From: Micromonospora globbae
GTDB lineage: Bacteria > Actinomycetota > Actinomycetes > Mycobacteriales > Micromonosporaceae
NCBI RefSeq assembly: GCF_003610785.1
Contig: NZ_RAQQ01000018.1
Span: forward strand, 62,001 to 126,000
Direction of reading: 5' to 3'
DNA length: 64,000 nt
Part shown: positions 52,858 to 57,521 of the stretch, in pieces
Layout of the letters: each line of letters starts with the position of its first letter
Position numbering within the stretch: the stretch's first letter is position 1
Position numbers and translations under genes: made by a program
Notes under the pieces: model-generated
The model's database searches: none
What the model was told of the DNA's origin: nothing
The model's input: the letters and a program-made list of their open reading frames with translations, nothing else

Positions 52858-52922
52858 CGATCGCCGATCTGCGCGGTCGGTGGCGGGCGGATGCCGCGCC
52901 GGACCGGTCAGATCGGCGATCG
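52858..52922 (-). repeat. long inverted repeat between rpmG and hadA-like gene
   Basis: CGATCGCCGATCTG (52858-52871) and its perfect complement (52909-52922) flank a 37-nt GC-rich loop that can itself fold. It begins 38 nt past the rpmG stop. It could be an rpmG terminator, an RNA element, or a pair of protein-binding sites at the hadA promoter. Confidence 0.75.
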
Positions 52923-52960
52923 GTGAAGCGTACGGGTGGCCGGGCGGTGCCGGCCGGAGG

Positions 52961-53128
52961 TCAGCGCGTCTCGCGGTGGAGGGTGTGCCGACCGTCCCGG
53001 GGGCAGAACTTCTTCAGCTCGATGCGGTCCGGGTCGTTACGGCGGTTCTTGCGCGTGATGTAGTTGCGCTCCTTGCACTCCACACACGCCAAAGTGATCT
53101 TCGGCCGGACATCGGTCGCCTTCGCCAC
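52961..53128 (-). CDS. rpmG: 50S ribosomal protein L33
   Basis: 55 residues: [20 protein letters not shown], then [20 protein letters not shown] and [15 protein letters not shown]. The first zinc pair CVEC is intact, but the second reads CPRD instead of CPxC, so one ligand is lost. GTG start at the family N-terminus. It lies just before hadA, as in mycobacteria. Confidence 0.93.
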
Positions 53129-53167
53129 GGCGGAGCGCCTTCCTCGCTAACGGTTAGAACTACGGCG

Positions 53168-53187
53168 CATCAGCGTACGTGCTGATG
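53168..53187 (-). other. hairpin upstream of rpmG
   Basis: CATCAGC, GTACGT, GCTGATG: a perfect 7-bp stem whose loop is itself self-complementary, 40 nt before the rpmG start. It could be leader structure or an operator. Confidence 0.4.
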
Positions 53188-53204
53188 ACGCGGACATGCA
53201 AAGT

Positions 53205-53221
53205 GGGCGCCTGTGGCGCCC
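53205..53221 (-). terminator. hairpin after tRNA-Met
   Basis: GGGCGCC, TGT, GGCGCCC, with a competing outer AGTGGG/CCCACT pair. About 40 nt past the tRNA-Met 3' end; likely terminator or processing site of the tRNA transcript. Confidence 0.5.
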
Positions 53222-53260
53222 CTCCCACTGACCACCGGGAACACGCCCGGAGGACGAGAG

Positions 53261-53333
53261 TAGCGGTGGCCGGACTTGAACCGGCGACACAGCGATTATG
53301 AGCCGCTTGCTCTGCCATCTGAGCTACACCGCC
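53261..53333 (-). tRNA. tRNA-Met (CAT), elongator
   Basis: 73 nt. Acceptor GGCGGTG/CACCGCT with a G-U first pair and A73, anticodon CAT in CTCATAA, T-loop GTTCAAGT. The paired first position distinguishes it from initiator tRNA. No encoded CCA. Confidence 0.92.
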
Positions 53334-53356
53334 GTGGTGGGTCCAGCTGACCCTCG

Positions 53357-53429
53357 AGCCCCCTTACGGAATCGAACCGTAGACCTTCTCCTTACCATGG
53401 AGACGCTCTGCCGACTGAGCTAAGGGGGC
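53357..53429 (-). tRNA. tRNA-Thr (GGT)
   Basis: 73 nt. Acceptor GCCCCCT/AGGGGGC with T73, D-loop TAGCTCAGTCGGCAGAG, anticodon GGT in ATGGTAA, T-loop GTTCGATT. No encoded CCA. It lies 23 bp above tRNA-Met and is transcribed with it. Confidence 0.95.
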
Positions 53430-53462
53430 CTGCGCGATCTCCCCGTGGGGCGCGCAGAGGTA

Positions 53463-53491
53463 AGAGTACACGGCTGCACCCCGCACGCGAA
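53463..53491 (-). promoter_or_regulatory. candidate tRNA-Thr/tRNA-Met promoter
   Basis: - strand -35 TTCGCG (53491-53486), 17-nt spacer, -10 TACTCT (53468-53463), 34 bp above tRNA-Thr. The -10 is good; the -35 is weak. Confidence 0.45.
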
Positions 53492-53522
53492 ATCGGATCC
53501 CCCGCCGTGGCGTCGGCGCAGG

Positions 53523-56051
53523 TCAGGGCACGACGCGCAGGCGCGGAAGCTCCGCTCCCGAGATCGTTTCGGGGTCCACCTGGGCGCCGAACCAGGCCTC
53601 CAGCCGCTCGTACGGCAGCGGCCGGCTGAACAGGAATCCCTGCCCGATCTCGCACCCGATGTCCTGGAGAAGCTCCAGCGTCAGCTCGCTCTCCACGCCC
53701 TCGGCCACCACCGCCAGGCCGAACTGCTGCGAGAGCGTCACCACGGCGTTGACGATCGCCAGGTCGCCCGGATCGGTGGCCATCCCCTGCACGAAGGACC
53801 GGTCGACCTTCACCTCGTGCACCGGCAGCCGCCGCAGGTGGGCCAGGGACGAGTCACCGGTGCCGAAGTCGTCCACCGACAGCCGTACGCCCAGATCGCG
53901 CAGCCGACGCAGGGTGGGCACGGGGCGGTCCGTGCCGTCCAGCACCCCCGCCTCGGTGATCTCCAGGGTGAGCCGCTGCGGCGGCACACCGTACTCGGTG
54001 AGCAGGTCCTGGACGCGGTCCGGGAAGTGCTGGTCGGTGAGCGTACGCGGGCTGAGGTTGACGGCCACGGAGAGCGGCTGCTCGGCCTGGGCCCAGTCCC
54101 GGCTGCGCCGCAGGCCCTCGCGCAGCACGATCTCGGTGAGGCGGCTGAGCTGGCCGGTGTGCTCGGCCACCGCCACGAAGTCCTCCGGGGCCACGGTGCC
54201 GTGCGTCGGATGCTCCCAGCGGGCCAGGCACTCGACGCCCACGAGCCGCCGGTCCCGCAGCGTGACCTTGGGCTGGAAGTAGATCTCCAGCTTCCCCTCG
54301 TCCAGCGCCCGGCGCAGGTCGCCGGCGAGCCCGAGCCGGCGCAGCGACCGCGACTCCAGGCCCGGGTTGAAGAGCTGGACGCTGCCCGGCACCGACTTCG
54401 CCGCCATGGCGGCCAGGTCGACCCGTTGCAGCAGCGTCGCGGCGTCGCTGCCGTGATCGGGGTGCACGGCGACGCCCACGGCGGTGTCCACGTCCAGGGT
54501 GAGCGCGTCGAAGACCATCTCGTCGCGGATCTGCTCGCGCAGCTGGGCGGCCAGGTCCACGGCCGCCTCGGCGCTCTCCAGCCGCATCGTCACCAGGAAC
54601 TCGTCGCCACCGGCCCGCCCCACGAGTGCGGAGGACGGCGCCGACGCGCGGAGTCGGTCGGCCACCTCGACGAGAACCTTGTCACCGGCGGCGTGGCCGA
54701 GCGACTCGTTGACCTGGCGCAGGCCGTCGACGTCGAAGAGGAGCAGCGCCACGACCTCCCCCGGCGCCCGGATCTTCACGGACTCGTCGAGGGCGCTCGT
54801 GATCCGCCGCCGGTTGGGCAGCTTGGTCAGCGTGTCGTGGTACGCGTCGTGCCGCAGCCGGTCGACGAGCCGCGAGTTCTCCAGCGCGACAGCGGCGTGC
54901 GCGGCCACCGTCTCGAAGACGGGCACGTCGTTGCGGACGAAGTAGTTGCTGTCGCCGAGGCGGTTCGCCACCTCCAGCGTGCCGATGACCGCCTGGCCGG
55001 AGCGCAGCGGCAGGACGATCACGTCCTTGATCCGCTGGACGGACAGGTCGGCACGCAGATCGGGGTCGCTGGTCATGCCACGCCCGACGGTGACGGCGCG
55101 GCCCTGCGCCCGGGCCCGCTGCCGCACCGAGGCGGGAGTCTTGGCGAGGTCCAGCAGACCGGAGTCGCCGTTGCGCGCGGTCAGCAGCACCTCCGGGTGC
55201 CGGCCCTGCGCGGGCAGCCAGAGCGTGGCGTACTCCGCCTGCATCAGCGTCCGCACCCGCCCGAGAAGGGCGTCGGCCAGGGTGCCGTCCTGCCCGCTCT
55301 CGGCGATCGCCCGGCTCAGCTCGTACATGTCGGCGAGCGTGCGGTGCTGCCGGAAGAACTGCGCGTACGCGCGATAGACGAGCGCCAGCGCGACGACGAG
55401 GGCCGCCAGCAGCACCACGGACCACCACGTCTCCGCGATGAGGATGAGCACGACCATGCCGCTGGCGATGTTGATGGCCGCGGTGAGCAGCGCGAGCGGG
55501 GTCTTCCGGATCGCCTCCCGCCCCGCCTGCCAGCCCTGGAGCAGGGTGTGGACCCCCGCCACGGAGACGATGCTGACCAGGTTCACCATGCTGGCCGCCG
55601 CGAACAGGATCAGCCAGGTGCCGGGACCGACCCCCTGCACGGGCGGAAGCGCCTGCAGCACCAGCACCGCCAGGGACGACCCGGCCGCGGCCCGGGCGAC
55701 GTTGAACCAGAACTTGGTGGCGCCCAGCCGGTGGCGATGGTGCGTGATGATGGCCGCGAGCGTGTAGATGACGACGACGGTGAGCGGCCGGAGCAGGTAG
55801 AACGCGAGAACCAGCGGGATCTCGGTGAGGGTCACGCCGACGGAGTGACGCCGCACGGTGAAGTTGAGCACCGGCAGCCCGGCGGCCACCATGGCCGCCA
55901 GGAGCAGCGCCGCCATCGGCCAGTCACCGAACGGCTCCCGGACGACGAGGGCGACGATCGTCGAACAGACGACGGCGAACAACGCCATCGGCCCGGTGAT
56001 CAGCCAGGCGTGCTCCGTCGTGCGGGAGCCAGCGCGGCCTTGACCCGCCAT
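53523..56051 (-). CDS. membrane GGDEF-EAL cyclic-di-GMP protein
   Basis: 842 residues. About 1-235: multiple transmembrane helices (a MASE-like sensor, starting near WLITGPMALFAVVCS). About 255-395: GAF-like domain. About 415-565: GGDEF domain with intact AGGDEF; its substrate motif reads DVDGLRQVNE, and the RxxD inhibitory site is absent. About 585-830: EAL domain with all metal and catalytic residues visible (GVECLARW, VNLSP, LEITE, DDFGTGDSS, KVDRSF, AEGVES, GQGFLFSRP). It may synthesise, degrade or switch c-di-GMP. It is 55 bp behind a small membrane peptide gene and probably co-transcribed with it. Confidence 0.92.
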   Translation of the reverse strand: MAGQGRAGSRTTEHAWLITGPMALFAVVCSTIVALVVREPFGDWPMAALLLAAMVAAGLPVLNFTVRRHSVGVTLTEIPLVLAFYLLRPLTVVVIYTLAAIITHHRHRLGATKFWFNVARAAAGSSLAVLVLQALPPVQGVGPGTWLILFAAASMVNLVSIVSVAGVHTLLQGWQAGREAIRKTPLALLTAAINIASGMVVLILIAETWWSVVLLAALVVALALVYRAYAQFFRQHRTLADMYELSRAIAESGQDGTLADALLGRVRTLMQAEYATLWLPAQGRHPEVLLTARNGDSGLLDLAKTPASVRQRARAQGRAVTVGRGMTSDPDLRADLSVQRIKDVIVLPLRSGQAVIGTLEVANRLGDSNYFVRNDVPVFETVAAHAAVALENSRLVDRLRHDAYHDTLTKLPNRRRITSALDESVKIRAPGEVVALLLFDVDGLRQVNESLGHAAGDKVLVEVADRLRASAPSSALVGRAGGDEFLVTMRLESAEAAVDLAAQLREQIRDEMVFDALTLDVDTAVGVAVHPDHGSDAATLLQRVDLAAMAAKSVPGSVQLFNPGLESRSLRRLGLAGDLRRALDEGKLEIYFQPKVTLRDRRLVGVECLARWEHPTHGTVAPEDFVAVAEHTGQLSRLTEIVLREGLRRSRDWAQAEQPLSVAVNLSPRTLTDQHFPDRVQDLLTEYGVPPQRLTLEITEAGVLDGTDRPVPTLRRLRDLGVRLSVDDFGTGDSSLAHLRRLPVHEVKVDRSFVQGMATDPGDLAIVNAVVTLSQQFGLAVVAEGVESELTLELLQDIGCEIGQGFLFSRPLPYERLEAWFGAQVDPETISGAELPRLRVVP

Positions 56052-56106
56052 GCCGCCCCCCTCACCGGCCCCGCTGGTTCACATCGTGGTGCAGTTGACC
56101 CTCGGG

Positions 56107-56265
56107 TCAGGGAAGCACCGGCGCGTTCCAGATGACGTCCATGTTCCAGATGACGTCCATTGTGTGCACCTGCCCGCCCCAGACGTCGCCTACGAAGACG
56201 CCGGCGGCCAGTGCAGCGAGCACCAGGAACGAGCCAAGCAGCCGGCCCCGCTTTCGACCAGACAT
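56107..56265 (-). CDS. 52-residue membrane peptide with a doubled MDVIWN motif
   Basis: I do not recognise a family. The peptide has a basic start (MSGRKRGR), one hydrophobic helix (about 9-28, LLGSFLVLAALAAGVFVGDV) and a short outside tail containing MDVIWN twice, then APVLP. ATG chosen because AGGAG lies 5 nt upstream; the in-frame extension above it has no such site. The duplication is perfect at DNA level. It is in the same direction as the GGDEF-EAL gene, 55 bp ahead of it. Either a signal peptide with a secreted 20-residue tail or a membrane-anchored partner is possible. Confidence 0.7.
   Translation of the reverse strand: MSGRKRGRLLGSFLVLAALAAGVFVGDVWGGQVHTMDVIWNMDVIWNAPVLP
56125..56160. 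repeat. 18-bp perfect tandem duplication
   Basis: GTTCCAGATGACGTCCAT at 56125-56142 is repeated at 56143-56160 with no mismatch. It encodes the two MDVIWN copies of the small membrane peptide, so the duplication is recent or under constraint. Confidence 0.95.
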
Positions 56266-56843
56266 GTTTGCTCCTGTCGGGGAAGTGTCACAGGGATGGT
56301 GGAGGTTCCACGATCGTGCCACACGGCCGGTGACCAGAAAAGCCGTGCGGGCACGGCAGGGCCGTGCCGGTGACGAGGTTCCGCCGATCAGGCCACGACT
56401 CCCGCCGAGCAGGGCCAGATCAAGGGCCTGATGTGCCGGGAGCAGGGTTCATCGGGTGCCTGATACGACGTACGGCACATTTCGCCTCCACGGCTCGCCC
56501 GACCTTCGAACAGCCGCGTGTGATCACTCTGTGTCACGTCTCGGACTGCCTCGGTCGCCCGCACCGCGACCGGGACATCGACCACCATACCTGCCTGACG
56601 CAAGAGGACCAGAGGGACGTCGGGGGCAATTCAGCCATTCCACGCTGGACCCCGCGCCAACCCGACACTGTTCGCCTCCCCGTGTCCGGTCATTCACGGT
56701 GTCCGGCACTTCTTCGCGTCTGTCCGGCGCCGTCCCCCGCTCCCCTGGTTCCGCGCGTTCCCGTTGCCCGGCGCCCGGCGTGCCCCGCTCCTGCCCACGT
56801 CGGGGCGGGGCATGCCCGGCGTCCCTCCGGGTACCCGCCGGCC
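56266..56843. other. divergent intergenic region
   Basis: 578 bp between the small membrane peptide (- strand) and the DUF1028 gene (+ strand). I see no gene. It has inverted GCCGTGC/GCACGGC elements near 56342-56370 and should hold both promoters; a - strand GGAACC at about 56306-56311 is reminiscent of ECF-sigma -35 boxes but lacks a sure partner. Confidence 0.5.
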
Positions 56844-57521
56844 GTGACCTTCTCGATCGCCGCACGCTGCCCGCGTACGGGCCAGCTCGGGGTGGGAGCC
56901 CTCACGGCCAGACCAGCGGTCGGCAAGCTGGTCGCGCACGTCCACGCCGACGGTGGCGCGGTGGCGACCCAGGCCACCCCCAACCCGTTCCTGGCCTACG
57001 ACGGCCTGCCGCTGCTCCACGAGGGCCGCTCGCCGCAGGACGTCCTGACCGTGCTGCTGGCCCGGGATCCGGGTCGGGAGGTACGGCAGGTCGGCATGGT
57101 CGATCGCGAGGGACGCGCGTACGCCTTCACCGGCTCCCGTGCCCGGCACTGGGCCGGCCACCACACCGGGCCGGGTTACGCGGCGCAGGGCAACCGGCTG
57201 GTGGGCCCCGAGACCCTCGCGGAGATCGTCCGAGTGTTCGAGGAGAGCCGGGAACTCGACCTGGCCGAGCGGCTCGTGCTGGCCATCGAGGCCGGCGAGG
57301 AGGCCGGCGGTGACCGGCAGGGCGCACGGTCGGCGACCGTCACGGTGATCGGCGACGAGCCGTACCCGATCTGGGACGTGCGGGTCGACGACGCCGAGCA
57401 TCCGGCGGCGGAACTGCGCCGGCTGCACGGCGTCTTCCGGGAGGAGGTGCTGCCGACCATCGAGCGGCTGCCCACCCGCGAGGACCCGATGGGCGAGGCC
57501 GCCCGGCAGGCGCTGGCGTAG
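56844..57521 (+). CDS. DUF1028 family protein
   Basis: 225 residues of the DUF1028 family, whose fold resembles Ntn hydrolases; no biochemical activity is established. The family pattern VTFSIAARCPRTGQLGVGAL, AVATQATPNPF, SRARHWAGHHTGPGYAAQGN and RSATVTVIG is complete. GTG start chosen because it gives the usual N-terminus; there is no Shine-Dalgarno, so it may be leaderless. It converges on an MFS gene. Confidence 0.85.
   Translation: MTFSIAARCPRTGQLGVGALTARPAVGKLVAHVHADGGAVATQATPNPFLAYDGLPLLHEGRSPQDVLTVLLARDPGREVRQVGMVDREGRAYAFTGSRARHWAGHHTGPGYAAQGNRLVGPETLAEIVRVFEESRELDLAERLVLAIEAGEEAGGDRQGARSATVTVIGDEPYPIWDVRVDDAEHPAAELRRLHGVFREEVLPTIERLPTREDPMGEAARQALA

Follow-up and report, generated by a model that had tools for sequence, protein, structure and literature searches.

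A tryptophan-motif peptide encoded ahead of a membrane-sensor GGDEF-EAL gene in Micromonospora globbae and its relatives: a candidate sensor ligand

The signals Phr, SHP and arbitrium are made as short precursors that carry an export signal and a C-terminal functional part of 5-6 residues, vary between species, and are encoded adjacent to their receptors, which are cytoplasmic tetratricopeptide repeat (TPR) proteins. The arrest peptides SecM, MifM and VemP have a signal sequence and a conserved late motif, and are encoded upstream of the gene that they regulate. Pentapeptide repeat proteins (PF00805) consist of tandem repeats with a period of five. Traits of all three occur in the locus described here, which lies in a window of 64,000 nucleotides from Micromonospora globbae (NCBI RefSeq assembly GCF_003610785.1, contig NZ_RAQQ01000018.1, positions 62,001 to 126,000) and consists of an open reading frame (ORF) for a peptide of 52 amino acids (aa), directly ahead of the gene of a membrane-sensor GGDEF-EAL protein. 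In contrast to the Phr, SHP and arbitrium systems, what is encoded next door is a membrane sensor that has a second-messenger output, and precursors of this kind can be subtilases with many repeats; a search for an RRNPP-type receptor gave no TPR match in the co-directional neighbour (the divergent neighbour was not searched). Unlike SecM, MifM and VemP, the late motif, a pentad with one tryptophan (W), is repeated in some lineages, stands at variable distances from the stop codon and also forms the tails of large enzymes.

On the receptor side, the nearest known counterparts are the S-component-fold receptors, the 5TMR sensor kinases; one fold is common to the S-components of energy-coupling factor (ECF) transporters and to 5TMR receptor kinases with GAF, GGDEF, EAL or kinase outputs (PMC11109136, Partipilo and Slotboom 2024). 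The sensor of the window is predicted to share this fold and has outputs of the same kinds, but it has no 5TMR Pfam match, and the available parts of that article describe no peptide partner. Neither the peptide nor the pairing was found described in the literature searched by title or abstract start, a search whose coverage mostly excludes subscription papers. It is considered rather probable that the W-pentad peptide is exported and is the ligand of this S-component-type sensor, and so sets the turnover of cyclic diguanosine monophosphate (c-di-GMP). The features of the pair are as follows.

56107..56265, minus: ORF of the 52-aa precursor peptide, from sequence and from the ORF found upstream of the enzyme in relatives
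56271..56275, minus: AGGAG, ribosome binding site of the peptide, from sequence; GACAG-GAG is kept in relatives
56188..56241, minus: hydrophobic stretch of the peptide, residues 9-26, a putative export signal or anchor by its sequence
56125..56160, minus: MDVIWN twice in the peptide tail, a perfect 18-bp tandem repeat in the sequence
53523..56051, minus: sensor-GAF-GGDEF-EAL protein, 842 aa, by Pfam
55422..56018, minus: membrane sensor domain, about residues 12-210, with an S-component-like predicted fold (AlphaFold2, Foldseek, VIA-align)
54882..55283, minus: GAF domain, residues 257-390 (Pfam PF01590, E 2.6e-10)
54393..54845, minus: GGDEF domain, residues 403-553 (Pfam, E 3.5e-31), with AGGDEF by eye
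53619..54320, minus: EAL domain, residues 578-811 (Pfam, E 1.5e-71)

The ORF at 56107-56265 on the minus strand is translated as MSGRKRGRLLGSFLVLAALAAGVFVGDVWGGQVHTMDVIWNMDVIWNAPVLP (52 aa). Its ATG follows the AGGAG at a spacing of 5 nt, and the basic start MSGRKRGR precedes a hydrophobic stretch with a 15-residue hydropathy of 2.39. The two copies of the 18-bp repeat, at 56125-56142 and 56143-56160, are identical. The ribosome site, the single hydrophobic stretch, the perfect duplication and the spacing of 55 bp between the peptide stop and the start of the c-di-GMP enzyme gene (56052-56106), all described in an earlier note on this DNA, were borne out by the sequence. The duplication is local: the four named relatives with the highest enzyme identity (L302, L303, L304, L375) have a single copy. 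The peptide belongs to no Pfam or NCBIfam family and has no PF00805 match; its sole Pfam signal, DUF5812, scored 12.5 bits, under the cut-off of 25.

The 52-aa ORF is a conserved gene, as judged from comparison with relatives. Orthologues of the enzyme occur in 43 of the family's 44 genera: 146 of 150 genomes have one, as do all 134 near-complete genomes. The family set examined comprised 110 of the 146 orthologues (L023-L052, L071-L150) from 40 of the 44 genera, one of the four genera left out having no match and three not being fetched. At 108 of these 110 loci, inspection by eye shows an ORF (20 to about 100 aa) close upstream of the enzyme that encodes a W not far from its C-terminus. The named set, the best 80 of 215 relatives, covers Micromonospora, Verrucosispora, Salinispora, Plantactinospora, Asanoa and Phytohabitans; 73 loci passed the first filter, six more lay below it and L319 was found separately. 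The peptide is present at all 80 (79 by a uniform rule, L376 by eye). The search for the peptide beside GGDEF-EAL genes in other actinomycetes, which the earlier note had proposed, succeeded in both sets, and its absence at this place in relatives, named beforehand as a refuting observation, was not what was found. The uniform rule, which asks for a ribosome site, a hydrophobic stretch, a W motif and the right distance, was satisfied at 79/80 named orthologues and 85/110 family loci, and at 8 of about 4000 random window anchors, 0/110 antisense anchors and 1/61 long-ORF starts used as controls. The rule misses 25 family loci, and at 23 of them a W close to the end of an upstream ORF can be seen by eye. 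The ratio of nonsynonymous to synonymous substitution rates (dN/dS) of the peptide is about 0.32 in 37 close pairs preselected for a protein similarity of at least 0.75. A single-sequence search with the peptide matched 21 of 61 genomes (its own and 60 relatives) at E ≤ 0.1. A peptide profile matched 19 of 150 genomes of the order, 15 of them in Micromonospora and none in other genera of the family, so the diverged peptides were found by inspection of gene order; the four profile matches outside the family lie within long frames and were set aside.

The conserved parts of 15 aligned peptides of the genus are MSGRxxGRLxGS at the start and a single W late in the sequence. What the whole family keeps is the pentad xxxWx, whose fourth residue is W and which occurs once to six times; the linker varies freely in both length and sequence. 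In 96 precursors the residue at -3 is mostly D, G, E or S and that at -2 mostly V, F, Y, I or L; this set was enriched for repeated motifs by choice, and frequencies were taken from 147 distinct precursors. Two or more identical xxxW units are carried by 25 of the 147, the maximum being six (DYSWG x6 in L319; DIVW x4 in L305). Repeats touch the W pentads in 28/147 precursors and lie elsewhere in 8/147, and the pentads make up 1083 of the 5782 residues. In the repeat-enriched set, 2.14 of the 3 residues before the W match within a precursor vs 0.52 of 3 between species. Since pentad copy number varies among precursors, the duplication in the window is one of several similar events. The repeat, to which the earlier note drew attention, is not essential, as 122/147 distinct precursors lack a second identical xxxW. 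In the genus g34 the ORF of L134 is a normal precursor ending in DYGWTLVGR; 20-aa ORFs of the same genus, of which the signal-less MRMHVASAHRSDYGWNIIGR is an example, end in DYGWNIIGR, DYGWNILGR or DLTWTVIGR (the last read from DNA by eye).

By its domains the enzyme is of the GGDEF-EAL c-di-GMP class, the AGGDEF and EAL-type residues being recognized by eye; GGDEF scored 108.6 bits and EAL 240.9 bits, both above the curated cut-offs of 23.8 and 31.3. The membrane domain matched no Pfam family, either in the window enzyme (E limit 10) or in a set of 12 sensors (E limit 0.1), and the same searches gave no sequence match to 5TMR (PF07694) or to an ECF S-component family. The MASE-like domain proposed in the earlier note was not recovered; there is no MASE or other Pfam match, and the predicted fold is S-component-like instead. 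A sequence search of the PDB with the sensor profile gave a best E of 0.13, which is not meaningful, and a plasmid collection searched with one sensor gave no match. The AlphaFold2 model of residues 1-255, built from 81 sequences, has a mean predicted local distance difference test (pLDDT) score of 81.9. The top 14 Foldseek rows are all ECF S-components (best E 2.8e-3; template modelling score 0.70 by target length). The top 20 of VIA-align are ECF S-components or their metal-transport counterparts, with Z from 13.0 to 9.6, the next row having 7.4, where helical models can reach such Z scores without kinship. Because the hit list is uniform and a gap in Z follows row 20, an S-component-like fold of the modelled sensor domain is credible. 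The S-component fold is expected to have an outward-open pocket.

The pairing extends beyond the family. A sensor-domain search at E 1e-12 matched 19 of 246 genomes of the class, of which three are Micromonospora; a sensor profile at E 1e-25 matched 34 of 118, of which one is Micromonospora. Many of the out-of-family sensors are directly preceded by ORFs with tandem repeats such as GLTWR x9, GLRWN x11, GAGWR x22, GSSWR x19, GRTWA, GHTWS, GSTWT and others. By a fixed rule, a tandem-repeat ORF is directly upstream at 27 of 41 evaluable out-of-family sensor genes, with W in 26 (46 loci, five dropped for short upstream sequence). Twenty of the 27 partners are long ORFs; each of the 16 tested is a subtilase by its Peptidase_S8 match, and the other four have Peptidase_S8 motifs by eye. 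The subtilases with pentad tails are about 480-660 aa in size, with as many as about 20 pentads in a tail. The seven short partners carry GTRWG x2, SHTWE x4, GASWN x3, GSGWH x3, GTGWH x4, GTSW x3 and GASLT x18. The GASLT partner (L185 / L218, G338:C1) is a short ORF with a signal-like start, at least 18 units that match PF00805, and no W. Unlike PF00805 proteins, L180, L183 and L192 have W-type tails without a PF00805 match; L180 matches the GETHR repeat PF05671 instead (E 6.3e-8). Among 20 control EAL genes of the same genomes (starts estimated, 1.8 kb scanned each) one has a repeat ORF, apparently spurious.

In the reverse direction, a DNA pattern of six GxxWx units was present in 38/197 genomes of the class vs 23/197 for the reversed control pattern, and in a smaller set in 10/12 vs 4/12; as the reversed control also matches, part of the pattern matches is low-complexity background. 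One locus per genome was taken from 30 of the 38 genomes, with L407, L412, L417 and L428 dropped (contig ends, no stop). A sensor domain is directly downstream at 17 of the 26 evaluable loci. The pattern rows of L409, L423, L426, L428 and L270 were judged by eye to be chance. L404 and L416 are subtilases with GxxWx tails, whose downstream ORFs are alike by eye and are not the sensor; 150-aa pieces of these ORFs gave no Pfam match. L424 is a subtilase with a GSRWT tail and has an ABC transporter gene downstream in place of a sensor. In six genomes with complete lists of pattern matches, chosen for holding sensors, 18 of 20 evaluable repeat clusters adjoin a sensor; an additional cluster is cut off by a contig end. 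Six repeat clusters precede sensors of which five have other outputs, namely histidine kinase in L262, L263, L265 and L267 and SpoIIE with HATPase in L264; the sixth, L268, is GGDEF-EAL. The sensor and its W-pentad partner thus stay together across differing outputs, and no other observation argues as strongly for an action of the partner by way of the sensor. The earlier note had suggested a secreted signal, a sensor ligand or a regulatory partner of the enzyme; the pairing that this implies is well supported, as it holds family-wide and often, with larger W-repeat partners and varied outputs, outside the family; the role itself is putative.

The region ahead of and between the two genes contains three further features.

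56312..56323, minus: TGTGGCACGATC, conserved element about 55 nt upstream of the peptide start, putative promoter or regulator site
56337..56342, minus: CTTTTC, upstream half of a promoter-like pair by presumed role
56056..56063, minus: GAGGGGGG, likely ribosome site of the enzyme gene, from sequence

The element TGTGGCACnATC sits about 55 nt ahead of the start codon of the peptide. Of the 73 named loci examined, 72 have TGGCACnATC, and in the wider family 55 of 80 loci have TGGCACnAT; CTTT is kept across a hand-picked set of 23 aligned Micromonospora loci. Together, the 12-bp element and the upstream CTTT look like a promoter, and a scan for sigma-70-type promoters found none. The 12-mer TGTGGCACNATC, searched as a marker of a regulon, occurs once in the 7.1-Mb genome, at the peptide locus, and was dropped for this purpose; because it is unique, the element at 56312-56323 is probably a single-gene control site. 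In the gap between peptide and enzyme, the terminator scan found no terminator-like site, the 23 aligned loci show no conserved RNA, and the ribosome site alone is conserved, so an RNA switch or attenuator is unlikely there. The one terminator-like site found is upstream of the peptide (56342-56357); this hairpin was dropped, as the upstream sequences of relatives lack it by eye. The enzyme gene is followed by genes for tRNA-Thr and tRNA-Met, which alone reached gathering scores in an Rfam search over 52900-56900.

According to the mechanism favoured here, the 52-aa ORF would encode the precursor of an exported peptide, whose functional part would be the W pentad within MDVIWN, present twice. 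The peptide gene and the sensor-GAF-GGDEF-EAL gene presumably form one transcription unit, under a conserved promoter specific to this gene. After export, the tail, either cleaved or anchored, may meet the pocket that the S-component-like sensor domain would open to the outside, and this contact would shift the balance between synthesis and breakdown of c-di-GMP inside the cell. In other actinomycetes the same kind of sensor would be served by larger precursors, the subtilase tails, and would act through histidine kinase or SpoIIE outputs.

Several observations weigh against the peptide as the ligand. No peptide was recognized upstream of the enzyme in L150, and the precursor of L149 (G143:C5) ends in five GSGEIA units without W, with the same enzyme downstream. 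At three of the four sampled g34 loci (L139, L141, L142) the ORF is 20 aa long and has no signal peptide, and outside the family a 43-aa ORF with four TPGTGWH units and no hydrophobic stretch lies ahead of a sensor gene (L233, G357:C250); these leaderless forms argue against obligatory Sec export. Fourteen of the 41 out-of-family sensors have no repeat partner, nine of the 26 six-pentad loci have no adjacent sensor (three of these being the subtilases L404, L416 and L424, with chance DNA among the others), and L269 (G353:C13), a W-repeat ORF in which subtilase motifs are seen by eye, has no sensor visible downstream. Foldseek gave zero matches under E 0.001. S-components bind vitamins and metals, and the ligand may therefore be a small molecule. 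A point in favour of the ligand is that, in 79 named pairs, similarity of the motif correlates with identity of the sensor at 0.50 and of the next region at 0.47, but of GGDEF at only 0.27 and of EAL at 0.23. The sensor value drops to about 0.22 when the other regions are held fixed; it is 0.23 when the peptide start is fixed as well, and 0 of 999 permutations were as high. This co-variation is only suggestive: it is confounded by phylogeny, which permutation leaves in place, and of all regions the sensor changes fastest, with a mean identity of 0.51 where GGDEF has 0.85 and EAL 0.88.

The small-molecule ligand belongs to an alternative that is judged unlikely, in which the peptide and the W-repeat tails are parts of the envelope co-expressed with the sensor, whose pocket binds a small molecule, so that the two share a pathway and make no contact. 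The partnerless sensors fit this, as do the small ligands bound by S-component-fold proteins, a fold that includes receptors (PMC11109136), and the paired subtilases could act on the wall. However, within the family the partner is 20 to about 120 aa long and can shrink to little beyond the motif, motifs of one type accompany this kind of sensor whether its output is a c-di-GMP enzyme, a kinase or SpoIIE and, a weak point, the motif varies with the sensor. A regulatory leader is a very improbable reading of the ORF; here the nascent chain would stall the ribosome and control translation of the GGDEF-EAL gene in the manner of the secretion-monitoring arrest peptides. It would explain a signal sequence and a conserved late motif immediately ahead of a regulated gene, and the leaderless 20-aa forms. 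Yet between motif and stop there may be no residue, a single one or up to some tens, the motif has up to six copies, the gap is unconserved save for the ribosome site, and outside the family the motifs are the tails of the large subtilases.

Highly doubtful, too, is a small subunit of the sensor that is retained in the membrane with its N-terminus inside and its tail outside, serving the folding of the sensor or the presentation of another ligand and not as an intercellular signal. The cleavage site after the hydrophobic stretch is unclear by eye in several relatives and in the window peptide, as such a subunit would have it, but many members in other genera have signal-peptide ends of the A-x-A type by eye, leaderless forms occur, and the tandem units, alike within a precursor and differing between species, resemble multi-copy signals. 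The favoured reading remains an exported peptide that is recognized by the sensor.

Actinomycetes tie c-di-GMP to development and antibiotic production, and to our knowledge the ligands of the membrane sensors that set it are largely unknown. In the strain Actinoplanes SE50/110, 67 GGDEF or EAL proteins are reported, and a GGDEF-EAL gene adjoins amlE (PMC6828939). A conserved peptide encoded together with its sensor is a ready candidate ligand, and synthetic pentapeptides can be made. There is about an even chance that the locus represents a new class of peptide signalling in actinomycetes, in which tiny peptides or subtilase tails with one to about twenty W pentads are read by S-component-fold receptors with c-di-GMP, kinase or SpoIIE outputs, and of which the pair in the window would be a minimal form. 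If this is true, ligand and receptor could be tested together for an orphan sensor family of many genomes, and the W-rich tails that subtilases of actinomycetes carry would gain a purpose.

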